Positions 9,968 to 27,447 of a stretch of DNA of 64,000 bases are shown one piece after another (position 1 is the stretch's first letter; each line of letters starts with the position of its first letter). A model generated the notes under the pieces. It saw only the letters and a list, made by a program, of their open reading frames with translations, was not told the DNA's origin and did no database searches. The position numbers and the translations under genes are program-made. This DNA is from Verrucomicrobiota bacterium (lineage in GTDB: Bacteria > Verrucomicrobiota > Verrucomicrobiae > Limisphaerales > UBA11358): NCBI GenBank assembly GCA_014860005.1, contig JACZKP010000069.1, positions 28,691 through 92,690 of the forward strand. The letters are read 5' to 3'.

Positions 9968-10519
9968 CTAGTGACAATGCTCGGCGTGGCTGGATTCACC
10001 GCAGGTGCAATCCAGGCAACCGTGCTTGCTGCAAGCCCGGCAGTTGTTGGAGAGCAAGTCGCGCAGATGTTTGCGGGCCCGATGCAGCCGCACCGTCAGA
10101 TTGTTCTTCGTCAAACCCAGTTGCGCGGCCACCACGGCGGGGTCGTTGTCGTCCAGGTCAATTTGTTGCAGCAGTTCCCGATACTGTGCGGGCACGGACG
10201 GCAACAGCCGACGAAAACATTGGCACAGCAGTCGTTCATCGGCGGCGCTGGGCGTTTCGGGAAGTTCAGCCTCGAATCGGGCCAGTGCGCGGCTACGGGC
10301 ATCATTGCGCCGATATAGGTCAATGATCGAGCGGCGCAAAATCCGGTAAAACCACGCCACAGAATCCTCGGCCTTGGCTGGTTTCCGATCAGCGGAGAGC
10401 ACTTTCACGAGACTGTCCTGCACCGCATCTTCGGCGAGATGCGGATCGCCCACGCGCTTGCGCGCAAACGCCACGAAAGCGTTCAGGTTTGCGAGCAAGG
10501 CGTCTTCGGCATTGGCCAT
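9968..10519 (-). CDS. CorE-like ECF sigma factor with Cys-rich tail (copy 1)
   Basis: A 183-residue ECF RNA polymerase sigma factor. Region 2 spans about residues 8-75 (core DLYRRNDARSRA) and region 4 about 105-155 (LGLTKNNLTVRLHRARKHLRD). Two metal-sensing features of Myxococcus CorE (ECF44 group) are seen: a CxC in the linker (Cys99-Gln-Cys101) and a C-terminal Cys-rich tail with Cys160, 163, 168, 171, 173 and 182 plus three His. In CorE, bound Cu(II) switches the factor on without an anti-sigma factor. I use the ATG at 10519, because the paralogue at 18605-19156 has the same length from there. It is divergent from the metal genes at 10.7 kb. Confidence 0.9.
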   Translation of the reverse strand: MANAEDALLANLNAFVAFARKRVGDPHLAEDAVQDSLVKVLSADRKPAKAEDSVAWFYRILRRSIIDLYRRNDARSRALARFEAELPETPSAADERLLCQCFRRLLPSVPAQYRELLQQIDLDDNDPAVVAAQLGLTKNNLTVRLHRARKHLRDLLSNNCRACSKHGCLDCTCGESSHAEHCH

Positions 10520-10695
10520 GACCGGACGGTAGCGATTTTCAAGCACTCCGGCAATCGCTGGAGTTACCACTGCTGGCCTCGCCCTTTCAAGGTATTCCGG
10601 GTCTTTTCGCGCTGATCCTCTATGGGGGTTATACCCTATAGCGAAGCCGCCCGCGCGTGCGCAAAGTTAGAGCAAGCCGAACGAAAGCACAAAAC
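10520..10695. promoter_or_regulatory. Divergent spacer between sigma factor 1 and the metal-protein genes
   Basis: The spacer should contain promoters for both directions. At 10620-10641 there is an imperfect 22 bp dyad with arms CTATGGGG and CCCTATAG around a 6-nt AT-rich centre. Its position suits an operator, but I cannot assign a regulator. Confidence 0.4.
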
Positions 10696-10758
10696 ATGAA
10701 GGCCATTAACAAGAAGATATTCTTGGGTGCAGGCATGGCAATCACGATGGCAATTTAG
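10696..10758 (+). CDS. Possible 20-residue leader peptide or signal-peptide remnant
   Basis: A short frame encodes a 20-residue peptide beginning MKAINKKIFLGAG, which looks like the first part of an export signal and then stops. It sits 12 bp before the His-rich protein gene. It could be a leader peptide or the remnant of a lost gene. Support is weak. Confidence 0.25.
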   Translation: MKAINKKIFLGAGMAITMAI

Positions 10759-10770
10759 GGGACTAAACGC

Positions 10771-11281
10771 ATGACGAACCGCCAACAAAAGCTTCCGCCC
10801 GCCCTCCGCATCACTGCGGCGGGATGTATCGGGCTTTGGTTGCTGGCGGTTTCGTGTTGCAGCATCGGGTATCTGTGCAGCGACGATCATCATGCGAAAG
10901 CAGACGCTCCCGAGACAGTCGCTCATCACGAGAACGACCACTCCCAAGAAGCGGACGCTGCGGAACACGCGCACGGCGAAGCGAGCCATCCGCATGATTC
11001 CGAGCAGTCCTCACACGATTCGCACCCCTGGTGAGGGCGGCGGCGACTCCTGTTGCTCCACGCTGATGGCAACAGCTCAAATCGCCAAGCCTTTCAGTGC
11101 CGCCCAGCCACTCCTTGAATCGTTCAAATTTCCCTGCACGGTTCTTCAAGCGCGCGATCCAATGCTGGCCGCGCCCGAAGCCAAACCGTTGAGCCAAGCT
11201 AAAGACCACGATTTGGTTCTCACGCCTGTAGTGTGTCTTGGGCCGGCGCACCGCAGCCTCGCTCCTCCCTCGTTCGCCTGA
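10771..11281 (+). pseudogene. His/Cys-rich metal-island protein, frameshifted
   Basis: The first frame (10771-11034) encodes an N-terminal membrane segment followed by a His-rich stretch (repeated HH, HAHGE and SHPHDSE motifs) suited to metal binding. It stops after DSHPW. Removing one C from the CCCC run at about 11026-11029 would continue in the next frame as GEGGGDSCCST and onward to 11281, ending APPSFA. The second part is protein-like, with a CC pair and a C-terminal CLGPAHRS motif. I read this as one gene of about 170 residues with a single-base frameshift, either real decay or a base-calling error. Function is unknown; its place next to a CorE-like sigma suggests a metal-responsive role. 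Confidence 0.6.
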
Positions 11282-11465
11282 GTTGAATCCTTGGCGCACG
11301 CGTGTGCGCCTGATTCAACGCTTCCGTTTGCCCTGCGTCGTTGGAACGCGCGGAAACGTTTCATCCACGATCCATGCCCGGTGGAACGACCGTGATTGAT
11401 GACCGGAAAAGAAACACGACCACAAAAACCAAAGTGCAATGACCGAAACCTAGAAAGAGAAAATA

Positions 11466-11651
11466 ATGGAAGAATCAAAATCCGTGACCAAAGACCCCCT
11501 CTGCGGAATGACCGTGGACGAAGCCACCGCTCTCCACGCCGACCGCGATGGAAAGACATTTTACTTTTGCAGCGACCACTGCCGGCAAAAGTTTCTGTCC
11601 ACCCCCGACGGCGCGAAGCCGGTGGAAAAGTCGGGCGGCTGTTGTGGATGA
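11466..11651 (+). CDS. YHS-domain metal-binding protein
   Basis: A 61-residue protein made of one YHS domain: KDPLCGMTVDE, then FYFCSDHCRQKFLS, ending in GGCCG. YHS domains bind heavy metals and often accompany copper transporters. The same module forms the N-terminus of the P-type ATPase at 19448, so this may act as a soluble counterpart or be a separate copy of that module. It lies in the first metal cluster, 184 bp after the frameshifted His-rich gene. Cys count and length fit a complete small protein. Confidence 0.85.
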   Translation: MEESKSVTKDPLCGMTVDEATALHADRDGKTFYFCSDHCRQKFLSTPDGAKPVEKSGGCCG

Positions 11652-11757
11652 CATCCCTGCACATGAGCCAGGCGACCCAGCAAGAAATGAATTTGCGAGC
11701 ACGACGCTCGCAGCAACAACAAACAAAAACTCAACAAGTAGAAAGAAAGCCACAGTT

Positions 11758-12208
11758 ATGAAAACAAACATCAGCATCATCAAGACCACCGCCATCACCA
11801 TCACCATCATCGCCGCAGTCGCCGTCTTCGGCTCAGCCGGTCATCTCAACGCGCAGGAGAAAGGCTCGGCCAAGGGAGGCGCGCACCAGTTGATGTCAAA
11901 ACCCGTCAAAACCTTGGAGGATTTGTCCGCCGTTAAACCGGGCGACATGATGGTCATAGCCTGCCCGAAGTGCAAAGACGTGACCGTCCACTATGTAAAA
12001 CCGACGTTCAAAGCGACGGAACCCAAGGACAAGGTGAAAACCCGGCACGAATGCCCCCGGCTGCGAACATAAGATCGTGTCCGAAGGCCATGGCAAAATG
12101 AAGACGGACAAAATTGTTCACGCGTGCAAACACTGCGGCAGCGAAGACGCGTTTTGTTGCGAGATGAAAAAGGGTGCCGGCGCGACAGCCGGAATGGAAA
12201 AGAAGTAA
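11758..12208 (+). pseudogene. Cys-rich exported protein, frameshifted
   Basis: The gene starts at the ATG at 11758 with a Sec signal (about residues 1-30, ending NAQ). The first frame carries CPKC and then stops at 12072 after ECPRLRT. Removing one C from the CCCCC run at about 12053-12057 gives CPGCEHKIVSEGHG, CKHCGSEDAFCCEMKK and a natural end at 12208. The restored protein (about 149 residues) would have CPKC, CPGC, CKHC and CC motifs and would plausibly bind metal. An intrinsic terminator lies 20 bp after the restored stop codon. I do not recognise the family. Confidence 0.65.
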
Positions 12209-12579
12209 TTCTCCAACCAAACTCAATCGGGAGAGCTTTCGCAGCTCTCCCGTTTTTTGTTTATGTCAATCCTCGCAGGTGCAATCAACTAGGCGTTGCT
12301 TCGCGCAATTGCTATCAGAGCCTTATCTGGCCGGTTAATCAGCCCGCTTCGCATCCTGTGCTTCAGAATTCTGCAGGCCACAGCGACCTGCGGTTTCGAT
12401 CAGGTTTCGAATCAAGGGGATTACCTGCTCAAGAGCCGATCCCGTCACGACGCTCGGCGGAAGGGGAATCAACCCCGCATCAAACTTCCCGTGTAATGAA
12501 CTTCGCTCGGTTGCGTTAGCCCGGACAGAAACGCGCAATTGTTCGCGCCCGACAACAACAAATCAAAGACGACAACCGT
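12209..12579. other. Gene-free spacer between the first metal cluster and the RND operon
   Basis: After the terminator, this spacer holds no supported gene. It should carry the promoter of the RND operon. The octamer GTGTAATG at 12491-12498 also occurs at 19211-19218 upstream of the copper ATPase. Confidence 0.5.
12228..12258 (+). terminator. Intrinsic terminator after the Cys-rich gene
   Basis: A perfect 10 bp stem (CGGGAGAGCT with AGCTCTCCCG) around a 5-nt loop is followed by six T. It closes the 10.7-12.2 kb transcript. Confidence 0.9.
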
Positions 12580-13953
12580 ATGAAAACCGATTCCCTGCTA
12601 GATGTGGCAATGCCCGAAGAGACCGCTTGGCGCGACCGCCGGAAGACTTTACGAATCAGCAATCCGCCGGTGCAACTGGCGAGCAATCATGAGCGACCCG
12701 TGATTTCGCCGGAGATGCTCACGGCTCTCCGCGAGGCAGAGTTTGCTCATTGGCAAGCCACGGGGGGTGATTTCCTCTCCAGCGCATATCAAACCAGCAG
12801 GGACAAGCGAAAAATTGGAGGCTGGCGATCAACCCGGTTATGGTTACTGGCGTTCGCTGGAATATCTGTGGCCCTGTTGACCGGTTGCTCTGGCTCATAC
12901 GCAAAATCCCCGGCTGCCCCAGTGCCGCCGCCGGAAGTACCTGTTCAGCGGGTGGTCGAACAGGCGATCCCATTGCGCTTCGAATTTACCGGGCACACGA
13001 TCGCCGCGCATCAGGTCGACGTTCGCGCCCGGGTGGGTGGCTATGTCATCAACGCCTCGTTTGGCGAGGGTGATTTCATCAAGGCGGGCACGCTGTTGTT
13101 CGAGATTGACCCCCGGCCGTTCACCGCAATTCACGCCAAAGCGGAAGCCGAGGTGGCCCGCGCCAAAGCGGCGACGGACCTGGCCCGGCAGGAACTCGCC
13201 CGCGCCGAACGACTCGGCCAAACCGACGCCATTGCCGTTGAGGAATTGGAGCGGAAGCGAACGGCTTGGGATACAGCGGGCGCAACCTTTTCCGCCGCTA
13301 TCGCCCAACGGGAAACGGCGGCTTTGGAGGTGGAGTTCACCAAGGTCAAAGCGCCGGTTGACGGTCGCATCGGGCGCGCCCTCGTGAAGCCAGGCAACCT
13401 CGTTTCCGGCGGCGATGCCAACGGCACCTTGCTGACCACGCTCGTTACCGTCAGTCCGATGCACGTCTTGTTCAACCTCGACGAACCGGCCTACCAGCAA
13501 CTCACTGCACTTCGTGCGACCGGCAAGACTTTGGCGGCGGAATTGAAACTCGGACACGGCGACGAAGTGTTGGCCGGGCACATTGATTATCTCGCCCCGA
13601 CCCTGGACGCCCGCTCCGGAACCGCTCAAGCCCGGGTGGTCGTGGCCAACGCGGATGGACGACTGTCCCCCGGCCTGTTCGCCCGCGTCACCGTCCTGGC
13701 CCAAACGGAACGAGCCCGCGTGATTGTCCCCGAAAGCGCCATTGGCGCATTTCAAGGAGGCCGCTTCGTGCTTGTCGTGGATGAACATAACAAATTGGCG
13801 CACCGCCAAGTAAGTCTCGGTGAACGTCGCGGTGCTGAGCGCCTGGTGCTGGCAGGCTTGTCCGCCGGGGAATCCATCGTGGTCAATGGACTGCAACGTG
13901 TGCGCCCCGGCATGTCTGTGCAACCCGTGCCCGCCCCGTTGGCCCGCAACTAA
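12580..13953 (+). CDS. RND efflux periplasmic adaptor (membrane fusion protein)
   Basis: A 457-residue AcrA/MexE-type adaptor linking an inner-membrane RND pump to an outer-membrane channel. From about residue 125 the order is barrel-sandwich/lipoyl half (VGGYVINASFGEGDFIKAG), alpha-hairpin with Ala/Glu repeats, second lipoyl half (VKAPVDGRIGRALVKPGNLV) and beta-barrel (RSGTAQARVVVANADGRLSPG). A lipobox LLTGC sits near residue 107. That leaves about 85 unexplained residues before the export signal, so the true start may be internal (no ATG is available) or the N-terminus is a fusion. It forms an operon with the permease (24 bp gap) and the outer-membrane gene. Confidence 0.88.
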   Translation: MKTDSLLDVAMPEETAWRDRRKTLRISNPPVQLASNHERPVISPEMLTALREAEFAHWQATGGDFLSSAYQTSRDKRKIGGWRSTRLWLLAFAGISVALLTGCSGSYAKSPAAPVPPPEVPVQRVVEQAIPLRFEFTGHTIAAHQVDVRARVGGYVINASFGEGDFIKAGTLLFEIDPRPFTAIHAKAEAEVARAKAATDLARQELARAERLGQTDAIAVEELERKRTAWDTAGATFSAAIAQRETAALEVEFTKVKAPVDGRIGRALVKPGNLVSGGDANGTLLTTLVTVSPMHVLFNLDEPAYQQLTALRATGKTLAAELKLGHGDEVLAGHIDYLAPTLDARSGTAQARVVVANADGRLSPGLFARVTVLAQTERARVIVPESAIGAFQGGRFVLVVDEHNKLAHRQVSLGERRGAERLVLAGLSAGESIVVNGLQRVRPGMSVQPVPAPLARN

Positions 13954-13976
13954 CCAATCTTCCCCGAGGACCTCCT

Positions 13977-16900
13977 ATGAACTTCTCCGACTACTTCATC
14001 CGTCGACCGATTGTTGCGGCCGTGCTTTCGATTCTCATCGTCATTGCCGGCGGGCTCGCGTTCTTCGGGCTGCCCGTGACCGAGTATCCGCAGGTGGCGC
14101 CCACGACCGTCATGGTCCGGGCGAGTTATCCAGGCGCTGACGCCGAGGTTATGGCGGAAACCGTCGCCGCGCCGTTGGAACAAGCCATTAACGGAGTCGA
14201 GGACATGCTTTATATGAGCAGTCAGGCCGCGACGGATGGCACGCTGCAATTGACAGTGACTTTCGCGCAGGGCACTGACCCAGATCTGGCGCAGATCAAC
14301 GTGCAGAATCGGGTGGCTCGGGCCCTGCCGCGGCTGCCAGCGGAAGTGCAGGCGCTCGGGGTCGTGACGGAAAAAACCTCGCCCGACATGCTGATGGTCG
14401 TTCACCTGATCTCACCCGGGGAGCGCTACGATGCGCTGCATCTCGTGAACTACGCTCTCCTCAACGTGCGCGATACGCTGGCGCGGCTTCCCGGCGTGAA
14501 TGACGTGCGGGTGTGGGGTGCCGGGGAATACAGCCTGCGCGTGTGGCTGGACCCGGAGAAACTTGCAGCCCGCGAACTCACGGCCCCCGAAATCGTCACG
14601 GCGATTCGCGAACAAAACGTGCAAGTGGCCGCGGGCACGCTCGGACAGCCGCCCCAGACTGGTGCGCCGTTTCAACTGACCGTAAAAGCTCCCGGGCGTC
14701 TGAAGTCCACGGAGGAATTCGCGGACATTGTCGTGAAGGCGGGCGCCAGCGGTGAATTGACCCGCTTGCGGGATGTGGCCCGGGTGGAGCTCGGCGCCGA
14801 TCAGTATGCGATGCGCAGCCTGCTCAACAACCAACCTGCCGCAGCCATTCAAATTGTTCAAAAGCCGGGTACGAGCGCGTTGGAAGTCGCGCAACGGGTC
14901 CGCGAAACCATGCAGGAACTCGAACGTGGTTTTCCCGAAAGCATCAGCCACCGGATTGCCTACGACCCGACCATTTTCGTGCGGGCCTCGCTGCGATCGG
15001 TAATCATCACCTTGGGCGAAGCCATTCTGCTCGTGGTGCTGGTTGTCGTGCTGTTCCTGCAATCCTGGCGGGCGTCGCTCATTCCGCTGGCCGCGGTGCC
15101 GGCGTCCTTGATCGGCACGTTCGCCATCATGCATTTGTTTGGATTCTCGCTGAACACGCTCTCCCTCTTCGGACTGGTGTTGTCGATTGGCATTGTCGTG
15201 GATGACGCGATTGTCGTTGTTGAAAACGTGGAGCGGCATCTGGCGCGAGGTCTGTCCCCCACGGAGGCCACTCGGGCGGCCATGCGCGAGGTTACCGGTC
15301 CGATCATTGCGATCACTTCCGTGCTGGTGGCGGTGTTTGTCCCCACGGCCTTTCTAAGTGGGTTGACCGGGCAATTCTATCAACAGTTTGCCCTCACCAT
15401 CGCCATCTCCACCATCCTGTCGGCGATCAATTCGCTGACCCTCAGTCCGGCGCTTGCCGCGATACTGCTCAAACCGCATCAGGCCACAACCGATGCCCCG
15501 AGAGGCTGGATGGGGGTTGCGCTGGGCTGGCTGTTCCGTCCCTTCAACCACTTCTTTGATCGCGCGGCGGTTCGCTACGTTGGAGGGGTGCGCCGCTTCG
15601 CGCGGGTCGGAGCGGTGGCCGCCGTGCTTTACCTCGGGCTTGGCGCGCTGACGTATCTCGGCTTCATGCGGACACCGGTGGGTTTCGTTCCCGCCCAGGA
15701 CAAATACTACCTCGTCGGCATTGCCCAGCTCCCGGATGCGGCTTCACTCGACCGCACGGAAGCCGTGGCGCGACAGATGACGGACATCCTGCGGGCGGAG
15801 CCGGGCGTGGACAATGTCGTCGCGTTCCCGGGGCTCTCGATAAATGGATTTGCAAGCATCCCTAACGCCGCCGTGGTTTTCGTCATGCTCGATCCCTTCG
15901 ATCAACGCGCCTCGCCCGAACTCGCGGCGGGCGCCATTGCCGGCCGCGTGAATCAAAAGCTCGGCGCCATTCAGGAAGGCTTCGCCGCGGTATTTCCGCC
16001 TCCGCCAGTGCCCGGGCTCGGCGCCCTGGGCGGCTTCAAGATGGAGGTCCAGGACCGCGGTGGGCACGGATCGGTGGCGTTGTTTGAGGCGACGCAAAAG
16101 CTGCTGACCGCAGCCAGCCAGCGCTCGGAGCTCGTCGGTTTGTTCTCCAGTTTCCAGGTCAACGTTCCGCAAGTCGGCCTGGATGTGGATCGCGACCGCG
16201 TGAAGGCGTATGGTTTGGCGTTGAGCGACGTGCATGCGGCGCTGCAAGCCAACCTTGGCTCGTTGTATGTGAACGACGTCACCTTCTTTGGGCGAATCTA
16301 TCGGGTGTTTGTGCAGGCAGATGCAACCTTCCGTTCTGACGAATCCGCCCTGCAACATCTCAAGGTGCGCAACCGCGAGGGCCAGTTCATTCCGCTCGCC
16401 TCCGTCGTCCAGGTGAAGACCGCCACCGGCCCGGATCGCATTATCCGCCACAATGCGTATCCGTCCGCCGACCTCAACGGCAACGCGGCGCCGGGCGTCA
16501 GCACCGGGCAGGCCCAAGCGTTGATGGAACAGCTCGCGCGGGAAGTTCTGCCCGCCGGGTTTTCGTTCGAGTGGACGGATCTGGCTTACCAGCAAAAACT
16601 CGCCGGTCAGAGTGGTGTGTGGATTTTCGGCCTGTGTGTGCTGTTCGCCTATCTGATTCTCGCGGCGCAGTACAACAGTTGGTCGCTGCCGCTGGCGGTC
16701 CTGCTCATCGTGCCACTGACGTTGCTCAGTGCGCTGGTGGGCGTGTGGCTCACTGGCGGCGACAATAATCTCTTCACGCAGATCGGCCTGGTCGTGCTGG
16801 TCGGACTCGCCGCGAAGAACGCCATCCTTATCGTCGAATTCGCCCGCGCCCGGGAAGACGAAGGCCTGGAACCGTTGGCGGCCGCTTTAGAGGCGTGCCG

Positions 16901-17156
16901 CCTGCGGCTGCGGCCCATCTTGATGACCTCGCTGGCCTTCATCATGGGCGTGGTGCCCTTGGTGTTGGCGAGTGGGGCGGGCGCAGAGATGCGTCACGCC
17001 ATGGGCGTGGCGGTCTTTGCCGGCATGCTGGGCGTGACGTTGTTCGGCTTGTTCTTCACGCCCCTGTTCTATGTCGCGATTCGCAAGTTGGCTGGGAAAA
17101 CCCAGCCGGTTGCTCAAACTCAACCCACTTCCACGGAGATCTTGAACCATGTATAA
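13977..17156 (+). CDS. RND multidrug-type efflux permease (HAE1 family)
   Basis: A 1059-residue AcrB/MexF-like proton-driven pump. It has twelve expected membrane segments in two repeats, each followed by a large periplasmic domain. Typical marks are the N-terminus MNFSDYFIRRPIVAAVLS, FGLPVTEYPQV, and the TM4 proton relay in GIVVDDAIVVVENVERHL; a second repeat has GLAAKNAILIVEFARARED. The length is normal for HAE1. It exports hydrophobic compounds rather than metal by family, so its place in a metal island is of interest. The stop overlaps the next gene start by 8 bp, showing tight coupling to the outer-membrane factor. Confidence 0.95.
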   Translation: MNFSDYFIRRPIVAAVLSILIVIAGGLAFFGLPVTEYPQVAPTTVMVRASYPGADAEVMAETVAAPLEQAINGVEDMLYMSSQAATDGTLQLTVTFAQGTDPDLAQINVQNRVARALPRLPAEVQALGVVTEKTSPDMLMVVHLISPGERYDALHLVNYALLNVRDTLARLPGVNDVRVWGAGEYSLRVWLDPEKLAARELTAPEIVTAIREQNVQVAAGTLGQPPQTGAPFQLTVKAPGRLKSTEEFADIVVKAGASGELTRLRDVARVELGADQYAMRSLLNNQPAAAIQIVQKPGTSALEVAQRVRETMQELERGFPESISHRIAYDPTIFVRASLRSVIITLGEAILLVVLVVVLFLQSWRASLIPLAAVPASLIGTFAIMHLFGFSLNTLSLFGLVLSIGIVVDDAIVVVENVERHLARGLSPTEATRAAMREVTGPIIAITSVLVAVFVPTAFLSGLTGQFYQQFALTIAISTILSAINSLTLSPALAAILLKPHQATTDAPRGWMGVALGWLFRPFNHFFDRAAVRYVGGVRRFARVGAVAAVLYLGLGALTYLGFMRTPVGFVPAQDKYYLVGIAQLPDAASLDRTEAVARQMTDILRAEPGVDNVVAFPGLSINGFASIPNAAVVFVMLDPFDQRASPELAAGAIAGRVNQKLGAIQEGFAAVFPPPPVPGLGALGGFKMEVQDRGGHGSVALFEATQKLLTAASQRSELVGLFSSFQVNVPQVGLDVDRDRVKAYGLALSDVHAALQANLGSLYVNDVTFFGRIYRVFVQADATFRSDESALQHLKVRNREGQFIPLASVVQVKTATGPDRIIRHNAYPSADLNGNAAPGVSTGQAQALMEQLAREVLPAGFSFEWTDLAYQQKLAGQSGVWIFGLCVLFAYLILAAQYNSWSLPLAVLLIVPLTLLSALVGVWLTGGDNNLFTQIGLVVLVGLAAKNAILIVEFARAREDEGLEPLAAALEACRLRLRPILMTSLAFIMGVVPLVLASGAGAEMRHAMGVAVFAGMLGVTLFGLFFTPLFYVAIRKLAGKTQPVAQTQPTSTEILNHV

Positions 17157-18567
17157 GCTTGTCCTCATCCCTATCCTTGGCGCCGTCCTCACCGGCTGCG
17201 CCGTCGGCCCCAACTACCAACCACCGACCACCGCGACGCCGGCCACATTTGGCCGGGCGGCCACCAATCAGTTTGCGCCCGCCAACCCTGAGGCTCATTG
17301 GTGGGCAATGTTCGCGGATCCGACCTTGAACGAGTTGATCGCGCGCGCGGCGAAAAAGAATCACGACGTGAAGATTGCGGAAGCTCACTTGAACGAAGCG
17401 CGCGCGCTCCGCCGCGGGGCGCTTTGGGCCTTCGCCCCGCAGGGGGGAGTTTCAGGAAGATTCCAGCGCCGACAACTGGCGCTCCCCGAAGTGGCGGGCG
17501 CGAATCTCCCCTCGCGCCTCGGGAACACCTGGTCCACCGGCTTCGATGCCACCTGGGAAATTGACCTCTTCGGTCGGTTGCGGCGGTCAGCGGAAGCCGC
17601 TTCGGCCGAAGTGGGCGTAACAGGCGCACAACTCCGCGATGTGCAAGTGGCGCTACTGGCAGAAGTGGCGGCCAATTATTTCGGCCTCCAGGGCGCCCGC
17701 GATACGGTCGGACTCTTGCGACAACAACGGGAGTTGCTCGAACGCAGTTTGAACACCACGCAACTCCGCGTGGCCGCCGGCCGGGGCAGCGCCCTCGACA
17801 CGGCGCGGGCGCAGGCGTTGCTGAAGGAAACGGAAGCCGCCGTGCCGCTGGCCGAACGCGAGGAAGCGCAGCATTTGCACCGGCTGGCCGTTTTGCTGGG
17901 GGAGCAGCCGGGTACATTCTCGTTGGCATTTGGTCCGCGTGAGACGGTCCAACCCGCCCGCCAGATTGCGATCGGGACCCCAGCGGAACTGCTGCGGCGC
18001 CGGCCCGACGTTTCTGCGGCGGAACGACAACTCGCTGCCGCCACCGCGCGGCTGGGCGTTCGCACGGCGGAGATGTTTCCCGAAGTCAGTGTCAGTGGAT
18101 TCATCCGCTTGATCGGTAGCGAGGGGGTCAGCTTGGGTTCGGCGGCCAGTCAGGCGTGGGGAGTCGCGCCAACTGCGACGTGGCATGTGCTCAGTCTGGG
18201 AAGGTTGAACGCCGTTCGCAACGCCAGTCGGTTCCAAGTCAATGCGGCGGTTGACCACTACGAGCAAACCGTGCTCCGCGCCTTGGAGGACATGGAAAAC
18301 TCATTGCTGCGTTATCGCACGGCCGATGAACGGTTGCGGCTGCTCGGCGAGCGGCAGTCGGCGGCGGACCGCGCCCACCGCATCGCCCAGGACCAATACC
18401 AGGCCGGGGCCATCAGCTCCCTCGAAGCAACCGACGCCGAACGGACCGCCCTCGCGGCGGCCCGCGAAACCACGGTTGCCGCCACAGAGCATCGACTCGC
18501 CGTGGTGGCCGTTTACAAAGCGCTCGGTGGTGGATGGAATGATGAACAACTTTGGGCCCGCAAATGA
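17149..18567 (+). CDS. Outer-membrane efflux lipoprotein, NodT/OprM family
   Basis: A 472-residue TolC-type channel subunit with a lipobox (VLTGC, Cys17) followed by AVGPNYQPP, the standard OprM/NodT start. Two TolC-type alpha/beta repeats follow, with ELLRRRPDVSAAERQLAAA in the second half. It completes the adaptor-permease-channel operon begun at 12580. The length is typical. It ends 37 bp before the 3' end of the convergent sigma factor gene. Confidence 0.94.
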   Translation: MYKLVLIPILGAVLTGCAVGPNYQPPTTATPATFGRAATNQFAPANPEAHWWAMFADPTLNELIARAAKKNHDVKIAEAHLNEARALRRGALWAFAPQGGVSGRFQRRQLALPEVAGANLPSRLGNTWSTGFDATWEIDLFGRLRRSAEAASAEVGVTGAQLRDVQVALLAEVAANYFGLQGARDTVGLLRQQRELLERSLNTTQLRVAAGRGSALDTARAQALLKETEAAVPLAEREEAQHLHRLAVLLGEQPGTFSLAFGPRETVQPARQIAIGTPAELLRRRPDVSAAERQLAAATARLGVRTAEMFPEVSVSGFIRLIGSEGVSLGSAASQAWGVAPTATWHVLSLGRLNAVRNASRFQVNAAVDHYEQTVLRALEDMENSLLRYRTADERLRLLGERQSAADRAHRIAQDQYQAGAISSLEATDAERTALAAARETTVAATEHRLAVVAVYKALGGGWNDEQLWARK

Positions 18568-18604
18568 GCGGCACTGCGCGCACTCCCAAAATGCCGCCGA
18601 TGAA

Positions 18605-19156
18605 TCAGTGGCAATGCGCCGCTTCACCGGACTCGCCGCACGTGCAATCCAGACAGCCATGTTTGCTGCAGGCGCGGCAGTTTTGGGCGAGGATTTCCCG
18701 CAAATGCTTCCGGGCGCGATGCAGGCGGACGGTGAGGTTGTTTTTCGTCACGCCGAGCTGGGCGGCAACGTCCGCAATCTCTTTGCCCTCCAGATCAATT
18801 TGTTGCAGGAGTTCGCGATATTGCTCGGGCACCGCGGGCAGCAGCCGCTTGAAACACTGGCAGAGCAGGCGTTCGTCGGCAGCGGTGGGCGCGTCCGGAA
18901 GTTCGTCCGCAAATCGTTCCAAGGCCCGACTGCGCACATCCCTGCGCCGGTAGAGATCAATGATGGAACGGCGCAAGATCCGGTAGAACCAGGCCACTGT
19001 GTCCTCCTCGTCCACCGGCTTTCGGTCTGCCGCCAACGCCTTTACAAGACTTTCTTGCACGAGATCCTCGGCCAGATGCGTGTCGCCGATGCGTTTGCGC
19101 GCGAATCCAATGAAAGTCTGCAGATTCTTCAAGAGGGAATCTTCGACGTGATGCAT
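18605..19156 (-). CDS. CorE-like ECF sigma factor with Cys-rich tail (copy 2)
   Basis: A 183-residue paralogue of the sigma factor at 9968-10519, co-linear over the whole length. It keeps the same linker CxC (Cys99, Cys101) and the same tail cysteines (160, 163, 168, 171, 173, 182). Region 2 contains DLYRRRDVRSRA and region 4 LGVTKNNLTVRLHRARKHLRE. Two His of copy 1 are replaced or shifted in the tail, which could change metal preference. It is divergent from the copper ATPase gene and convergent with the RND operon. By analogy with CorE/CorE2 of Myxococcus, the two copies may answer different metals or redox states; this is inference. Confidence 0.9.
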   Translation of the reverse strand: MHHVEDSLLKNLQTFIGFARKRIGDTHLAEDLVQESLVKALAADRKPVDEEDTVAWFYRILRRSIIDLYRRRDVRSRALERFADELPDAPTAADERLLCQCFKRLLPAVPEQYRELLQQIDLEGKEIADVAAQLGVTKNNLTVRLHRARKHLREILAQNCRACSKHGCLDCTCGESGEAAHCH

Positions 19157-19447
19157 GAGGTCATCTTAGGCGTGGCGTTTCCGGCGGGCAAGTTTAACGA
19201 GCAATTTGCCGTGTAATGGAATAATCATTGACGGTTGGTGGAACTGGAGTAGCACTGGTGAGGCCCTCCGCGCCTCCCGAATCTCCAGACCGAGCCACGA
19301 AGCTGAGCACGGACTTGAGCGTTGTTATCATGGCCGGATCGCTTTGTTTCAATAACTTACGTGGACGGTGTAATAGAAATGACGGGTCTGCGTTTCCAGA
19401 GGTAAGAGAAGCACAAAAAGCTTCGACAACGAATAAAAGCACAGCCC
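19157..19447. promoter_or_regulatory. Divergent promoter region between sigma factor 2 and copA
   Basis: This 291 bp spacer must serve both directions. GTGTAATG occurs at 19211-19218 and the related GTGTAATA at 19368-19375, both in the copA direction. They may be parts of metal-sigma promoters, but the upstream -35 elements do not line up convincingly. Confidence 0.4.
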
Positions 19448-22042
19448 ATGAAAACTGATCCAATCTGCGGAATGACGGTGGACGAAACGACGGCGCTCCG
19501 TGCCGAGCGCGAGGGTGAGACGTTCTACTTTTGCAGCGAGCACTGCCGGAAGAAGTTCCTTTCGCAAAGCACGCCTGCCACAACGGACGGCGGTTGTTGC
19601 GGTGGAACGAAGGCCAAACCGTCCGATGCATCCGGGGATTGCTGCGGCGGCAAAGATGAGCACGACGACCACGTCAGCCACGAACACAAGCATGGGGCAA
19701 AGGAACATTCCTGCTGCAGCGGGAAGGTGAGTGGTGAAGCTCACACTCACGCGCACCACGACCATTCTCATCACGATCACGACCATGCCGCGGTAACGCC
19801 TTCCGCCGCAGCGAAATACTTTTGCCCGATGTGTCCCGGAGTGGAATCCGACAAGCCGGGTGATTGTCCGAAATGCGGCATGGCGTTGGAACGTAATCCC
19901 GCGTGGAAACCCGCAGCGAAAACCATCTACACCTGCCCGATGCATCCCGAGATCGAACAGGATCATCCCGGGGATTGCCCGAAGTGCGGCATGGCGCTCG
20001 AACCCAAAACCGTCGTCGCCGAAAGTGATGTTGAAGAGGACAACTCCGAATTGCGCGACATGACGCGCCGCTTTTGGATCGGCGGGGCTTTGGCATTGCC
20101 CGTTTTCCTCGTGGCGATGGCCCATCTCGTGCCGGCCTGGCGACATGCGGAATGGGCGGCTGGCGACGTTTCGCGCTGGGGACAATTTTTGCTGAGCACG
20201 CCGGTGGTGCTGTGGGCCGGCTGGCCGTTCTTTGTGCGCGGTTGGCGTTCTTTGCGGAATCGGAGTCTGAACATGTTTACGTTGATCGCCATCGGTGTTG
20301 GCGCGGCCTATGTCTTCAGCGCAGTTGCAATGTTCTTCCCGCAAGTGTTTCCGGCCGGCTCGGGACATGGCGGCAAACCCGCACTCTATTTTGAAGCCGC
20401 GGCCGTCATCACCGTGCTGGTGTTGCTCGGTCAGATGCTCGAACTCCGCGCCCGCCAACGCACCAGCGGCGCCATAAAAGCCTTGCTCGGTTTGGCGCCA
20501 AAAACCGCGCGTCGGGTCACGCCCGCAGGCGATGAGGAGGTTTCGTTGGATGTTGTGCAACCGGGCGACCAACTCCGCGTGCGTCCCGGCGAGAAGATTC
20601 CCGTGGATGGCGAAGTCGTGGAAGGCCGCACGTCCGTGGATGAATCCATGCTCACTGGCGAACCGCTGCCAGTGGAGAAAACGGTCGGAGCGAAAGTTTC
20701 CGGCGGCACGGTGAACACCACCGGCGGGATGATAATGCGGGCCGAACGCGTCGGCAGCGAAACGCTGCTGGCGCAGATCGTGAACCTCGTGGCGCAGGCG
20801 CAGCGAAGTCGCGCACCGATTCAAGCTCTGGCCGACAAGGTCGCGGCGTGGTTTGTGCCCGCCGTGCTCGTAATTTCCGCACTCACATTTGCCGCGTGGA
20901 TGATTTGGGGACCAGAACCGCGCCTCGCCTATGCGATTACCAACGCCGTGGCGGTTCTCATCATTGCGTGTCCCTGCGCGCTCGGATTGGCTACGCCCAT
21001 GAGTGTGATGGTCGGCATTGGCCGCGGCGCGCAAATCGGAGTGCTCATTCGCAACGCCGAAGCTATTGAGAAGCTGGCTCAACTGAACACGCTGGCGGTG
21101 GACAAAACAGGCACGCTCACGGAAGGCAAACCGAAGCTCGTGCAAATTTTGCCGGTGAATGGATTCTCCGATACGGATCTCCTGCGACTCGCCGCATCAT
21201 TGGAGCAGAGCAGTGAACATCCGCTGGCTCACGCGGTCGTGATGGCCGCTCGTGAACGACAGCTTCCGCTTGAAAGTGCTGTTGATTTTCAATCCACCAC
21301 CGCCGGCGGCGTGACCGGCACCATCGGCGGATGTTTGGTGGCGGTTGGAAAAGCGGATTTCCTGCGCGACATCGGAGTGGCCGAAATCAGTGCGCTTGAA
21401 TCACTGGCCGCCCCGCATCAAGCCGAAGGGGCCACCGCGATTCTGGTCGCCATCGCGGGCCGCCCGGCGGGAGTCCTGACGATCGCCGATCCCGTGAAAG
21501 CCACGACGCCGGAAGCGCTGGCGGAATTGCGCAAGCTTGGCGTGCAGGTGCTCATGCTCACCGGCGACAATCCGCGCACGGCCGAAGCCGTCGCCCGCAA
21601 GCTCGGTATTCAAGACTTTCAGGCTGGCGTCACGCCGCACGACAAACACGAGAAGGTAAAAGCCCTCAAAGCAGCGGGCCGGATTGTCGGCATGGCGGGC
21701 GACGGCATCAATGACGCCCCCGCACTCGCGGCGGCGGATGTCGGTATCGCCATGGGCACCGGGACGGACATTGCCATGGAAAGCGCCGGCGTCACGCTGG
21801 TGAAGGGTGATCTCATGGGCATCGTTCGCGCGATCCGACTGGGCCGGGCGATGATGCGAAACATCCGCCAGAACTTGGTGTTTGCCTTCGGCTACAATGC
21901 GCTCGGAATTCCGGTCGCCGCGGGCGTGCTCTATCCATTTTTCGGCGCGCTGCTCAGTCCCATCATTGCTGGCGCGGCCATGAGCTTGAGTTCTGTCTCG
22001 GTCATCGGCAATGCCCTCCGGCTGCGAAAGGCAAAGCTATGA
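19448..22042 (+). CDS. copA: Cu+-exporting P1B-type ATPase with YHS, His-rich and double HMBD N-terminus
   Basis: An 864-residue copper pump. The first 170 residues are a chain of metal modules: a YHS domain (about 1-40), CCGG/DCCGG clusters, a His/Asp-rich stretch (about 68-115) and two heavy-metal-binding domains (CPMCPG...CPKCGMALE and CPMHPE...CPKCGMALE). The catalytic core follows, with TGEP, the membrane CPC motif ([11 protein letters not shown]), DKTGT (phosphorylated Asp), SEHPLAH and GDGINDAP. The final segment with [16 protein letters not shown] fits the Cu+ (P1B-1) type. No classical ferredoxin-like HMA domain is present. It is divergent from sigma factor 2. Confidence 0.95.
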
Positions 22043-23076: not shown

Positions 23077-24582
23077 ATGAAAACAAAACTATTTTGCAGT
23101 CTGTTGGTGCTCGTGGCGTTGAACGCCGCGTTTGGAGCGCCGGTCTCCGACCCGGCGCGAAGTGAGCGCCTTGCGAACCACTTCGATTTGAAACACGGAG
23201 CATGGATGCTCCGTGAACCCGCGGGCAAGGATGCCCGCGTTACGCGCGTAGCGCAGGCATCCTTGCCTGCGGGTTCTGGTGGCATCTTGCCGCCAGTTTC
23301 TGAACCGACCTCACAACGAGCCGGGCCGGAGGCCGGCGCTCCACCGCTGCAACTCACGCCGGAATTGATCACGCAATTCGCCGAGGAGATGGCGACCAAT
23401 CATCCGAGTTTGCTCGCGGCCCGCGCCCGGACGAATGCCGCCGCTGCCAACGTCAAATCCGTCCGCACCTGGGAAGACCCGATGGCCACCGTCGGTGTCA
23501 TGGCGGCGGAACGCATGATGCGCATGGAGGATGGCGACATCGCGTATGGCGTCGAACAAAAACTGCCGTTGTTTGGCAAACCCGGGGCGATGCGCAAAAT
23601 GGCCGCCGCGGAACTCTCGGTGGAAGTCGCGGTTGAAGATTTGAAATTTCAAACGCTCCGCAGCGATCTGGCGAAAGCGCTGTTTCGCGCCGCGCTCGCT
23701 GACGAAATGCTGGTCATCGCGGAGCAGGACCTCGAATGGCTGGCCGTCACTACCAAAGTGGTTGAAGAAGGTTATCGCTCTGGCACGGCGCGACTCATGG
23801 ATGTGTTGACGCTGCAAAACGAGCAAAGCAAACGCGTCGAGCAGTTGCAGACCGACCGGGACAATCGCGCCCAGGCCTTGCTCGTGGTAAATCGTTTTTT
23901 GAATCGCGAGCTCGCCGCGCCGTGGCCGGCGCTCCAACTACCGGCGTTGGCCGACGAAATCCGGTTCAGCCCCAGCATCCTGGGTTACGCGATTGCTCAA
24001 GCGCCCGAGTTGCGCAAGATGCGCGAAGAATTCCGCATGACCGAAGCCGCCGTCAACGTCGCGCGCAAAGAACGCTGGCCCGAGGTGAGTGTTGGTTTTG
24101 AAAATCGCGTTTATGCGCGCGACAACGATCTGCGTTCCACCGACTTCATGGTCGGTTTCAACATTCCGCTGGGTAACAGTTCCAAATATCGCGCGGCGAT
24201 TCGACGTGAGGAGGAAAAGCGGCGGGCGGTCGAATTTGAAACTCGCAACATGGAGCAAGCCGTCCGTGAAGAAATCCACGGACTGTTTGTGAAAATCTCC
24301 GCCGCACGCCGGGAAGCGGTGCTGTATCGCGATCAAATCATCCCCCGCAGTGAACAGGCGCTTGCCAGTGCCCGGGCGATGTTTGAGTCTGGCGGCCTGT
24401 TGCGCGATGTGCTGGATGCGCGCCGCATGTTGCTCGAAGGAAAATTGATGTATGCCCGCGCTGTGGCCGAGCAATACGAAATGATTGCCGAACTCATCCT
24501 CTGCTGCGGCCTGGGCGATCTCGAAGCACTGCAAATGATTGGCGTTGGCTCTGATTCGCAAACTGAAACTCCCAAACCTTGA
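23077..24582 (+). CDS. Outer-membrane efflux protein, TolC/CusC type, with repeat-encoded segment
   Basis: A 501-residue TolC-family protein with a signal peptide (about 1-20). The alpha-hairpin repeats start near residue 95, with ANHPSLLAARARTNAA-like helices, EQKLPLFGKPG and VGFNIPLGNSSKYRA, as in metal-efflux channel proteins. Residues about 40-67 are encoded by repeat DNA (hairpins at 23194-23215 and 23215-23276) and look like filler between signal and domain. It is the probable outer-membrane partner of the CusB/CusA-like genes downstream. Confidence 0.88.
   Translation: MKTKLFCSLLVLVALNAAFGAPVSDPARSERLANHFDLKHGAWMLREPAGKDARVTRVAQASLPAGSGGILPPVSEPTSQRAGPEAGAPPLQLTPELITQFAEEMATNHPSLLAARARTNAAAANVKSVRTWEDPMATVGVMAAERMMRMEDGDIAYGVEQKLPLFGKPGAMRKMAAAELSVEVAVEDLKFQTLRSDLAKALFRAALADEMLVIAEQDLEWLAVTTKVVEEGYRSGTARLMDVLTLQNEQSKRVEQLQTDRDNRAQALLVVNRFLNRELAAPWPALQLPALADEIRFSPSILGYAIAQAPELRKMREEFRMTEAAVNVARKERWPEVSVGFENRVYARDNDLRSTDFMVGFNIPLGNSSKYRAAIRREEEKRRAVEFETRNMEQAVREEIHGLFVKISAARREAVLYRDQIIPRSEQALASARAMFESGGLLRDVLDARRMLLEGKLMYARAVAEQYEMIAELILCCGLGDLEALQMIGVGSDSQTETPKP
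23194..23276. repeat. Two adjoining hairpins inside the TolC-like gene
   Basis: The first hairpin has 9 bp arms CACGGAGCA/TGCTCCGTG (23194-23215). The second has 25 bp arms (23215-23239 and 23252-23276) that pair at 23 of 25 positions. Both are translated in frame. Confidence 0.85.
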
Positions 24583-24595
24583 ACTATTGAAACCT

Positions 24596-24883
24596 ATGAA
24601 ATTCATCGCCCGTTATCTCAATCTCATTGGACTACTCCTGCTCGCATCCTTCGTGACTGCGGCGGCGGGACTATATTTCCAGGTGCCGGAACGACTTCAA
24701 GCCAAGCGTGGCCAAGCGACCGTCGCCGCAGCGAAACAAGCGGACAATATGGCGCCGTCTGACGCTGGTTGTTGTGCGGCAAAAGCGCCTGCGCCCGAAC
24801 CACCACCCGCGGCGACTTGTCCACACTTGGCGGCGCAGGCAGCAAAGGAATCTTCCTGCTGCCCTCAGCCTGCGAACCCCTGA
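24596..24883 (+). CDS. Small membrane-anchored Cys/Pro/Ala-rich protein
   Basis: A 95-residue protein with one N-terminal membrane segment (about residues 8-27) and a low-complexity tail containing GCCAAKAP, ATCPHLA and SSCCPQP. The cysteine pairs suggest metal binding. It begins 13 bp after the TolC-like gene and ends 7 bp before the adaptor gene, so it is part of the operon. I do not recognise a family; a periplasmic metal-holding role is possible. Confidence 0.6.
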   Translation: MKFIARYLNLIGLLLLASFVTAAAGLYFQVPERLQAKRGQATVAAAKQADNMAPSDAGCCAAKAPAPEPPPAATCPHLAAQAAKESSCCPQPANP

Positions 24884-24890
24884 CACGAAT

Positions 24891-26969
24891 ATGAAAGACC
24901 AAGAATTATTTCAGGCCGCGATTGTGGATAGTAGAGCGACCGAGAACCCGCCAGGTCTTGGACTGCGGCAGCCCTCTGCCGCTTTTTCACCGCAGGCTGG
25001 TGGTGGAAAAGCGGTGGAGGGCCACCGCACTCCAAGACGCTCCCGCGTCGCATCCAGCGCGTTTGCCAAAACCCAGCTATGGGTTCTCTGTGCCATCATT
25101 GCGGGCGCGAGCCTGATGTTGACGGGCTGCGGCCGAAAGGGCGACTCCCACGCGGCCCACAACCAGACATCTACAACCGATAACCAACAACCGACTATTT
25201 ACTCCTGCCCCATGCATCCGCAAATCCGGCAGCCCATGATGGGCCGGTGTCCGATTTGCGGCATGGAACTCACGCCGATTGGGGCGGACGATGAGGATGA
25301 CGATGCGGAAGCGCCCGTGCTCCGCGTGAGCCGTCGCGCCGCCGCGCTCATGGAGGTTCAGACCGCACCCGCCGAACGTCGGCACGTCGAGGCCGAGCGG
25401 CGTTTCCTCGGCAAATTCGTTTATGACGAGACGCGGCTCACCGACATCGCGCTGCGCACCGACGGACAGATCGAGCGGTTGTTTGTCAATTACACCGGTG
25501 TGCCGGTGCGCCAGGGCGAACATATCGCCGAGATTTACAGCCCGGAGTTTTTCGCAGCCACGCGGGAATTGCTCGTGACCGGCCGGGGTAACGATGCCGC
25601 GATGGTGGAGTCCGCGCGACTCCGGCTGCGGTTGCTGGATGTCACTGACGATCAGATTGAGGGCATCCTGCGTGGCGAGGAGCCGAAAAGCAGCTTCACG
25701 CTGTTCAGCCCCGTCACCGGCGTGCTCACCGAACTGGGCGGGCGTCAGGGCGGCTGGTTGATGCGTGGCGAACGCCTTGCGCAGATTGCCGACCTTTCCT
25801 CGCTCTGGGTGCTGCTCGATGCCTACGAGTCGGACATCGCGCTGATTCATTACGGCCAGCAGGTGAAGCTGGACGTGCCGGCGTTTCCCGGACGCGAATT
25901 CACGGGGTTCGTCGCTTACGTCGCGCCCGATCTCGACGAGCGCACGCGCACGATCAAGGTGCGCCTCAACGTGCCGAATCCCGACGGCCGGCTGCGGCCC
26001 GGCATGTTCGCGCGCGCGGAACTCAAAGTGCCGCTGACCGCCGACGGTTCGGTTTACGGGCCGGAGCTGGCGGGCAAGTGGATTTGTCCCATGCACCCGG
26101 AAATCACCGGCGACGAACCCGGCGCGTGCAGCTTATGCGACATGCCGTTGGAGGCGGCGGAGAAACTTGGCTATGTCCGCACGGAGGAAAAAGTCGAGTT
26201 GCCGCTCGTGATTCCGGCCAGCGCGCCACTGATCACCGGCCGACGCGCGGTGGTCTATGTGCAGTTGCCCGACACGGAGCGCCCGACGTTCGAGGGCCGC
26301 AACATCCAGCTCGGGCCGCGCGCGGGCGATTACTACCTCGTGCTCGACGGCATCAAAGAAGGCGAGCGCGTGGTGACGGAGGGGAACTTCAAAATTGACA
26401 GTGAACTCCAGATTCGCGGCCGGCCCAGCATGATGGCGGGGGAAGGGGCGTGGGAACGAAAGGGTTCGGGGTTGTTGGTTGAGGGTGAGGCTGCGCGCGT
26501 GAAAGCGCGGGCCGATGTGCCGGCGGGATTTGGCGAACAGGTCGAAAAACTGGCGAAGGCGTATCTCGCGTTAGCCACGGCGCTGGCGGGGGATGACTTC
26601 GAGAAGTCCCGTGCCGCCGCCAGCGCGATGGACGATCTTTTGCACCAGTTCGATTCCAGCGCGCTGCCGGAGGAGGCGGCGAGCGCGTGGAAATTGCTGG
26701 AAACGGAATTGCACAAACCGCTGCACGCGATGCGCGAGGTGGCGGACATCGCCGCGATGCGCGAACAACTCGTGCCGCTGACGCACCACACCGAGCACGT
26801 CGCAGTCGCCTTCGGTGCAGGGCAGGTCGGCAAGTTGTATGTCGCGCACTGTCCAATGGCCTTTGGCAACAAGGGCGCAAGCTGGCTGCAAGCCGACGAA
26901 ACCATTGCCAACCCGTATTTCGGCGCGCGGATGTTCCGGTGCGGGGAAATTGAAAGGACGTTGGAGTGA
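24891..26969 (+). CDS. cusB: CusB-type RND adaptor with two HMBD modules and DUF3347
   Basis: A 692-residue heavy-metal RND adaptor. After a repeat-encoded N-terminal stretch (residues about 22-49) comes a membrane segment with lipobox MLTGC. Next is a first heavy-metal-binding domain (YSCPMHPQ...CPICGMELTP, about 102-128). The lipoyl and beta-barrel parts follow. A second such domain (WICPMHPE...CSLCDMPLE) is inserted at about residues 395-420. The C-terminal DUF3347 domain ends with HCPMAFGNKGASWLQ and NPYFGARMFRCGE. E. coli CusB has about 400 residues, so this is a metal-handling fusion. A G/T-rich repeat lies at 26460-26489. I chose the ATG at 24891; earlier in-frame starts overlap the preceding gene. 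Confidence 0.9.
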   Translation: MKDQELFQAAIVDSRATENPPGLGLRQPSAAFSPQAGGGKAVEGHRTPRRSRVASSAFAKTQLWVLCAIIAGASLMLTGCGRKGDSHAAHNQTSTTDNQQPTIYSCPMHPQIRQPMMGRCPICGMELTPIGADDEDDDAEAPVLRVSRRAAALMEVQTAPAERRHVEAERRFLGKFVYDETRLTDIALRTDGQIERLFVNYTGVPVRQGEHIAEIYSPEFFAATRELLVTGRGNDAAMVESARLRLRLLDVTDDQIEGILRGEEPKSSFTLFSPVTGVLTELGGRQGGWLMRGERLAQIADLSSLWVLLDAYESDIALIHYGQQVKLDVPAFPGREFTGFVAYVAPDLDERTRTIKVRLNVPNPDGRLRPGMFARAELKVPLTADGSVYGPELAGKWICPMHPEITGDEPGACSLCDMPLEAAEKLGYVRTEEKVELPLVIPASAPLITGRRAVVYVQLPDTERPTFEGRNIQLGPRAGDYYLVLDGIKEGERVVTEGNFKIDSELQIRGRPSMMAGEGAWERKGSGLLVEGEAARVKARADVPAGFGEQVEKLAKAYLALATALAGDDFEKSRAAASAMDDLLHQFDSSALPEEAASAWKLLETELHKPLHAMREVADIAAMREQLVPLTHHTEHVAVAFGAGQVGKLYVAHCPMAFGNKGASWLQADETIANPYFGARMFRCGEIERTLE
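24955..25038. repeat. In-frame palindromic element at the start of cusB
   Basis: Arms of about 37 bp beginning GTCTTGGACTGCGG and ending CCGCACTCCAAGAC pair with a few mismatches. The 84 bp span equals 28 codons and adds a basic, Gly/Ser-rich segment ahead of the lipobox. Confidence 0.85.
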
Positions 26970-26995
26970 TGGAGTTTTGGAGTTTTGGAGTAATG
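26961..26995. repeat. Octamer tandem repeat at the cusB stop codon
   Basis: About four imperfect 8 bp units related to TTGGAGTT. The array begins inside the last two codons of cusB and supplies its TGA stop. An array of the inverted type lies at 27391-27435. Confidence 0.75.
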
Positions 26996-27390
26996 AAAAT
27001 CTCACGTCAATTCGAGCGTTGTTGCCGGCTGGAGCGCCGACGTGTCGTCGGCTTAAGGCGGTCGGGTGTTATCCGGTGTGAGCCACAAGTGAAAGTGGAC
27101 ACGAAACGCAGCGCGGACACGGTAAGCCGGTCAGAGACCGGCGCTCCGTTCGCGCGGAGCGCGGGCTTCAGCCCGCTTCAACGCCGTAGAAATCAATGCC
27201 TGCCGAGCCGTTCCACACCACACCGCATTTGGAAGTTGAAGCGGCATGAATGCCGCGCTCCTTATTCGCTTCTCCAAGCCTCGGTTTTGAATCCCGACCA
27301 TCTCGACGAAGCAGGCGCGCTGCGGCTGGTGCTTCGCACACAGCCGCGCTCCGGGAGATTTGTGCGACCACGCCATTGCACAAATCCATT
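26996..27390. repeat. Cluster of hairpin modules in the cusB-cusA spacer
   Basis: No gene is supported here. The spacer holds successive small palindromes: 27036-27052 (GCCGAC arms), 27126-27142 (GCCGGTC arms), 27161-27176 (GCGGGCT arms), 27241-27256 (GCGGCAT arms), and a 35 bp unit at 27318-27352 that recurs inverted at 42450-42484. Several are followed by or end in GCTCC. Confidence 0.8.
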
Positions 27391-27435
27391 ATTCCATCAC
27401 TCCATCACTCCAATGCTCCACCACTCCACCACTCC
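27391..27435. repeat. Octamer tandem repeat just before cusA
   Basis: Imperfect 8 bp units (CATCACTC, CACCACTC) run to 13 bp before the cusA start. They are the reverse-complement type of the array at 26961-26995, so the two arrays bracket the hairpin cluster. Confidence 0.75.
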
Positions 27436-27447
27436 GCCCTCAGTCCC

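Follow-up and report, generated by a model that had tools for sequence, protein, structure and literature searches.

A 64 kb stretch of Verrucomicrobiota DNA (contig JACZKP010000069.1, 64,000 nucleotides; hereafter the window), whose nearest named relatives lie in the Verrucomicrobiota, encodes two extracytoplasmic function (ECF) sigma factors, Sig1 (9968..10519, minus strand) and Sig2 (18605..19156, minus strand), which flank an operon for a resistance-nodulation-division (RND) efflux pump. In our assessment they are probably two paralogous factors of the CorE type that feed one copper regulon, and this regulon would include the multidrug-class RND pump encoded between them. A predicted promoter shared by the RND operon and copA, the gene for a copper P-type ATPase beside Sig2, suggests that the twins drive one copper response and not responses to two metals.

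Beyond the window, the evidence leans towards a single promoter code, TGTAA-N14/15-[GC]CGT[CT], common to CorE-type factors of several phyla and allowing copper regulons to be read from sequence, with a multidrug-class RND pump recruited in this lineage and two redundant paralogous sensors present; we hold this wider reading with somewhat more belief than doubt. Two predictions from sequence are what is new here: the promoter signature itself and the placing of a multidrug-class pump under it. Among the matches listed in literature searches, neither the promoter pattern nor the link to RND pumps appears, although the motif is not claimed to be unpublished, as the CorE promoters in Figure S3 of the CorE work are presented as an image. 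CorE-type factors are sigma factors that serve as their own metal sensors. A signature that predicts their targets from sequence would open the regulons of uncharacterised members to direct testing. If a copper-type sigma factor indeed controls a multidrug-class pump, this would constitute a route from metal exposure to higher efflux capacity.

Architecture of the two sigma factors and comparison with CorE

Sig1 and Sig2 each comprise 183 residues and contain, according to Pfam, the domains Sigma70_r2 and Sigma70_r4_2, with no further domain and a short C-terminal extension. For Sig1, the ATG at 10519 gives the 183-residue protein that corresponds to the database form P0028, and an in-frame GTG at 10570 would give 200 residues. 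The cysteines stand at equal positions in the two proteins: 99 and 101 form a CxC in the linker, and 160, 163, 168, 171, 173 and 182 lie in a tail that reads C160-x2-C163-x4-C168-x2-C171-x-C173-x8-C182, with a serine at position 164 in both. These coordinates and cysteines confirm what an earlier note on this DNA had reported, namely two 183-residue sigma factors with identical linker CxC and tail Cys positions, and the gene order that it described is likewise found, with Sig1 divergent from a cluster of His/Cys proteins (10771) and Sig2 divergent from copA.

The two factors are identical at 139 of 183 residues (76%), the matches being distributed as 48/64 in sigma2, 43/53 in sigma4 and 24/31 in the tail. 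None of the seven changes in residues 153-183 falls on a cysteine, and residues 160-176 are the same in both. Residues 134-152, which we take from general knowledge of sigma4 to be the -35 recognition region, agree at 18 of 19 positions. The Sig1 tail has one histidine (178) more than the Sig2 tail. A profile search of all window frames returned these two family members and no other, and, among the 25 NCBIfam families listed for each factor, the general ECF superfamily TIGR02937 alone passes its cut-off. An AlphaFold model gave confident sigma2 and sigma4 helices and left the tail unresolved (mean predicted local distance difference test score, pLDDT, 79.6; predicted template modelling score, pTM, 0.43); when the model was used in a fold search, ECF sigma factors ranked top, as expected. 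No anti-sigma gene was found among the scanned neighbours of Sig1 and Sig2, a scan that did not cover some small frames and beyond which a distant anti-sigma gene could lie. Viral contigs yielded no relative, and a PADLOC scan gave a single weak helix-turn-helix match and nothing relevant.

This plan resembles that of CorE from Myxococcus xanthus, a copper-dependent ECF sigma factor (formerly ECF44, now near ECF238), which has the same sigma2-sigma4 arrangement with a linker CxC, the same tail spacing C-x2-C-x4-C-x2-C-x-C (C181 to C194 in CorE, with the equivalent of C189 present in Sig1 and Sig2), no anti-sigma found adjacent, and linkage to a copper P-type ATPase. The CorE report places the tail cysteines at 181, 184, 189, 192, 194 and 206, identifies C189 as the main activating residue, notes synteny with copper genes for several members that have its equivalent, and gives P-type ATPases, an HMA (heavy-metal-associated) protein and a multicopper oxidase as classes of the regulon (PMC3107203). 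A review states that both the CxC and the Cys tail are essential, that the newest scheme leaves CorE itself without a class, and that within ECF238 the former ECF44 part alone retains the CxC (PMC8999054). CorE and CorE2 were the only experimentally studied members of the group in 2021, according to a review of that year (PMC8103513).

Sig1 and Sig2 depart from CorE in the position of the last tail cysteine, which follows after x8 rather than x11, in occurring as two copies in one island, and in predicted targets that include a multidrug-class RND operon. RND and cupredoxin classes are not among the CorE regulon classes named in the abstract of the CorE report (PMC3107203); both occur behind predicted sites here. 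The overall architecture is also like that of CorE2, a Cd/Zn factor with the tail order CC-x3-C-x2-C-x-C and a metal specificity set by the second Cys (PMC9023288); the extra cysteine of CorE2, expected immediately C-terminal to the second tail Cys, is, however, absent from Sig1 and Sig2, Ser164 being found in both.

Whole-genome searches and a protein search for M. xanthus CorE itself yielded only P0136, a protein that NCBI assigns to M. xanthus, that is not proven to be CorE and whose five tail cysteines are offset by 7 relative to the CorE numbering. It is 40% and 41% identical to the window factors over 171 and 175 residues. Seven cysteines, C99, C101, C160, C163, C168, C171 and C173, do not vary when the two window factors are aligned with 77 relatives, Myxococcus included (79 sequences). 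Homolog statistics were drawn from two sets, each the best 120 of a longer list of matches (1364 and 6862). In the former, the CorE tail pattern is present in 121 of 121 entries (the window's two proteins account for three of these and relatives for the other 118), and a fixed-window test found the linker CxC in 114 of these; the other seven are six proteins longer than 205 residues and one of 175. The latter, a set resembling the M. xanthus protein, contains 119 tails of the CorE form and one of the CorE2 form. The linkage to copA also recurs, as 17 of 28 reference-genome loci have a CopA match (at least 45% identity over at least 150 residues) within 1 kb of the sigma gene, either divergent or co-directional; the distance is 8.8 kb in locus L007, and 10 of the 28 loci have no CopA match. 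Taken together, the architecture, the Cys spacing, the copper-gene linkage and a similarly patterned M. xanthus protein with roughly 40% identity support the assignment of Sig1 and Sig2 to the CorE type, and hence the likeness to CorE proposed in the earlier note, on these features though not through placement in a tree beside CorE itself.

Predicted promoters in the window and the two sigma copies

The RND operon lies on the plus strand between the two sigma genes and encodes a MexE/OqxA-like periplasmic adaptor (12580..13953; best against the MexE model, below its cut-off), a permease of the multidrug (HAE1, OqxB-like) class (13977..17156) and a NodT-type outer-membrane efflux protein (17149..18567; model match). 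The permease scored 1415.4 against NF000282, above the cut-off of 1250, whereas its scores against TIGR00914 (CusA/CzcA; 329.9, cut-off 701.45) and against the OqxB model (1291.6, cut-off 2200) fell short. As the earlier note described, an RND operon (12580-18567) lies between the sigma genes; its permease, however, belongs to the multidrug class and stays below the CusA/CzcA cut-off. In these permease and adaptor scores the operon is like the OqxAB and MexEF-type HAE1 pumps; it differs from them in its setting, a copper island, and in lying behind a predicted CorE-type site.

A strict motif, TGTAA[T/G]-N14-TGCGTT, was obtained by side-by-side reading of the regions upstream of the sigma genes of relatives. 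Exactly two sites match it in the 64 kb, both on the plus strand and both of the form TGTAAT-N14-TGCGTT: the predicted CorE-type promoter of the RND operon (12492..12517), which ends 62 nt before the adaptor gene, and that of copA (19369..19394), which ends 53 nt before its gene. In 60 dinucleotide shuffles of the window the strict motif did not occur, and a looser form occurred at a mean of 0.05. A weight matrix built from 21 unique sites of other loci, with the window excluded, scored the two sites at 34.4 (12492) and 18.2 (19369), the next best in the window being 0.4. Of the promoter regions named earlier, those at 12.4 and 19.3 kb contain the motif and that at 10.5 kb does not. A special Sig1 promoter at 10.5-10.8 kb was considered and rejected, neither the pattern nor the matrix giving a CorE-type site there.

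According to the CorE report, AAC stands at -35 in the promoters of that factor, with a conserved G at 16-18 from it (PMC3107203), and the window motif, with 17 nt between AAT and the G of CGT, is compatible with this spacing. The -10 element is TGCGTT in the clade of the window, in comparison with mostly CGTC in more distant relatives. The sigma-copA gene pair of the cultured Verrucomicrobium sp. BvORR034 (L022) shows the CGTC form. Near the start of Sig2, at 19213-19240, there is also a TGTAAT stretch that is like a -35 element and has no matching -10, possibly a decayed promoter copy.

By analogy with CorE, Sig1 and Sig2 would be inactive in the apo form; copper, which by the same analogy would be Cu(II), would bind at the C-terminal Cys site together with the linker CxC and make the factor competent to let RNA polymerase start at TGTAA-N14-TGCGTT promoters. 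The predicted targets in the island are copA (site at 19369) and the multidrug-class RND operon (site at 12492). As the two factors hardly differ in the sensing core and in the -35 recognition segment, a shared metal input and shared promoters are most likely, and Sig1 and Sig2 would then differ, if at all, in the time of their production. Different timing, dosage or the decay of a second module could each be a reason for the presence of two copies, and, in the case of timing, the G-tract inverted repeat that lies between Sig1 and 10771 may serve as an operator of its own.

Judged by their sequences, Sig1 and Sig2 look like old paralogs. In a 54-row maximum-likelihood tree, a clade of eight rows (support 99/99) unites Sig1 with, among others, a gene from another genome (locus L004) that is 85% identical to it, and Sig2 pairs with P0003 (support 96/98); a FastTree with 168 rows agrees. 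A recent Sig1/Sig2 duplication, which was also considered, is not supported by these placements. The trees were rooted on P0136 and are hence uninformative on placement relative to CorE. A single pairwise NG86 estimate for the pair gave a replacement divergence (dN) of 0.16 and a silent divergence (dS) of about 1.9, and both genes seem to be kept under selection because the latter is saturated and the former is not. In L004, the Sig1-type gene precedes copA and has NodT remnants behind it, which is the position of Sig2 in the window, and the promoter motif found in the window occurs at this copA as well. The NodT gene remnants adjoin the sigma gene (L004:7297-11073) and suggest that this locus once had the RND operon and no longer does. 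The copA of L004 gives two matches that abut each other, possibly because of a frameshift. Several sigma-copA modules occur in one genome in both KLAP45 (L010, L013) and SJ352 (L012, L014, L016).

These observations bear on two other accounts of the second copy. It is rather unlikely, in our estimate, that Sig1 is a relict or back-up, left from a second module that lost its copA partner and kept a YHS domain and decaying genes, with Sig2 as the working factor. The lack of a site near Sig1 would fit such a history, as would the stand-alone YHS gene at 11466, in which 94 nt (11500-11593) are 83% identical to the start of copA (19464-19557), the two neighbouring small genes that look frameshifted, and the two or three modules carried by KLAP45 and SJ352. 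However, Sig1 is intact and has all eight cysteines, its replacement changes are few in comparison with the saturated silent sites, and the frameshifts could be assembly errors of a metagenome contig. We find decidedly improbable the two-channel switch put forward in the earlier note, whereby each of Sig1 and Sig2 would respond to its own metal or oxidation state and control its own neighbours. The factors are separate lineages and not a fresh duplication, they differ at 44 of 183 residues, and the extra His178 is found in the Sig1 tail, all of which speak for the switch. Against it stand the identity of residues 160-176, the absence of the CorE2-type Cys from both factors, the match at 18 of 19 positions in residues 134-152, the failure to find a Sig1-specific promoter, and the presence in L004 of a Sig1-clade gene in front of copA with the same motif. 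As the sensing core is identical, a difference in metals is not the leading idea, and two paralogous factors feeding one copper regulon is the reading that we carry forward.

The motif in other loci and genomes

A relaxed pattern, TGTAA[TCG]-N14/15-[GC]CGT[CT], was fixed on a set of 45 loci before new loci were scanned. This set includes the loci used for motif discovery and omits L002, L003, the duplicates L139 and L149, and the short L032-L100. A relaxed site is located at most 320 nt upstream of the sigma gene in 30 of the 45 loci, 19 of the sites being divergent (18 with CGTT) and 11 in the direction of the sigma gene (10 with CGTC); nine of the latter 11 sit 36-45 nt before the start. A further 14 relaxed sites are found elsewhere in the 726 kb of the set, and several of these precede copper or RND genes.

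The newly scanned loci were compared with four control patterns, which were reversed or scrambled forms. A phylum-wide sample showed a site in 6 of 10 loci (6 sites; controls 2, 1, 0, 0) and a second set in 19 of 30 loci (21 sites; controls 0, 0, 0, 0). The 30-locus set contains relatives (52-100% identity) of one CorE-type protein, taken without a check of the tail in each. Its source is the class to which G120 belongs, G120 being a genome sampled from the same phylum as Minicystis rosea. Two of its loci, L101 and L102, overlap the earlier-scanned L147 and L148, and L101 repeats a known site; without both, the count is 18 of 28. Judged by eye, the sites of this set precede the sigma gene in 5 cases, copper-type genes in 6, a frame resembling the major facilitator superfamily (MFS) in 1 and unnamed frames in 9. 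In G125 and G104, four sites were found in 2 of 3 loci.

Ten chosen genes behind sites were examined with Pfam, which identified metal P-type ATPases (L205, L206, L150), an HMA protein (L150), a multicopper oxidase (L116), cupredoxins (L104, L146) and RND adaptors (L014, L007), and gave no match for a fragment in L207. Very Cys-rich peptides of 53-56 residues, which appear metallothionein-like by eye, lie directly behind predicted promoters in L007 (9602-9763), L211 (1205-1375) and L062 (near 2335). L007 and L014 hold orthologous RND operons, with permeases 79-85% identical to that of the window, and each of these operons has its own site. Permease paralogs of at most 59% identity, from nine genomes that include those of the orthologs, have no strict site nearby; among their contigs, G285:C176 alone contains a strict site, which is about 89 kb away and is the sigma gene's own.

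An order-wide sample comprised 293 genomes of the order to which the L004 genome belongs, with a threshold of 1e-40 for sigma detection. When a following [T/A]G is required, 11 of 20 sigma-positive genomes contain the strict motif, versus 13 of 273 sigma-negative ones (Fisher p about 1e-8), and 16 of the 17 matches in sigma-positive genomes are on the sigma-bearing contig. The reversed pattern gave 20 matches, 1 of them in a sigma-positive genome. This test is partly circular, because the motif had been defined in part on many of these same sigma-positive loci. That the motif is no promoter at all, but a stretch inherited from a common ancestor along with the divergent sigma and copA genes around it, is very improbable, for although many instances are orthologous sigma-copA intergenic regions, the same spacing is found before genes that are unrelated (RND adaptors, cupredoxins, a multicopper oxidase, an HMA protein, Cys-rich peptides) and across Verrucomicrobiota, Lentisphaerota (L015), KSB1 (L019), Nitrospirota (L001) and Minicystis (L146), and the control patterns gave hardly any sites.

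Several results weigh against a shared copper regulon read through this promoter code. In the window, the matrix scan shows no site before Sig1, Sig2 or 10771; it thus gives no sign of autoregulation for either sigma gene and ties no target to Sig1 specifically. The copA site has CC after TGCGTTT, where most others have GC, and the relaxed pattern matches the window a third time at 34037-34062, outside the island, probably by chance. In the structure model, residues 162-183 are below pLDDT 50; the tail is thus unresolved, and no structural claim on a metal site is made. Elsewhere, a site within 320 nt is missing from 15 of the 45 sigma loci, the strict motif is absent from 9 of the 20 sigma-positive genomes of the order, and 9 of the 21 sites of the 30-locus set stand before frames that were not recognised by eye, with 1 more before the MFS-like frame. 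A set of 29 Myxococcota loci, which mixes CorE-type with other ECF factors, has sites in only 4 loci (5 sites; controls 1, 0, 0, 0).

The sigma genes of L008, L009 and L011 have no copA match in the locus DNA and no upstream site; in L008 and L011, a site is found directly behind the sigma gene.

Other genes of the copper island

The copper island extends from Sig1 to about 31.9 kb in the order Sig1, His-rich, YHS and Cys-rich proteins, RND operon, Sig2, copA, small proteins and a CusCBA-like set. CopA (19448..22042, plus strand) was identified with Pfam and other models as a copper P-type ATPase with an N-terminal YHS domain and two heavy-metal-binding (HMBD) stretches. The CusC/CusB/CusA-like metal RND set, assigned with Pfam, occupies 23077..31527 on the plus strand (23077-24582, 24708-26969 and 27250-31527), and the matrix scan of the window shows no CorE-type site in front of it.

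Three small genes on the plus strand lie between Sig1 and the RND operon. The one divergent from Sig1 (10771..11034) encodes a small His-rich protein that is probably exported and has no Pfam match; by eye, an adjacent frame carries on with a Cys-containing stretch, and the gene is therefore possibly frameshifted. It is followed by the stand-alone YHS-domain protein (11466..11651; 61 residues, Pfam) and by a small Cys-rich exported protein (11758..12072). The relatives of the latter in L137 and L138 are intact and the sequence past the window stop matches another frame, so this gene is probably frameshifted, or else the assembly is in error at this point.

Between Sig1 and 10771 there is an imperfect G-tract inverted repeat, CTATGGGGGTTATACCCTATAG (10620..10641), which was found by inspection and is not listed by an ungapped repeat search; it may be similar to an operator of the CsoR/RcnR type. 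A similar and perfect palindrome, TGGGGTAAATACCCCA, is located near position 8004 of L143, upstream of the sigma gene of that locus.

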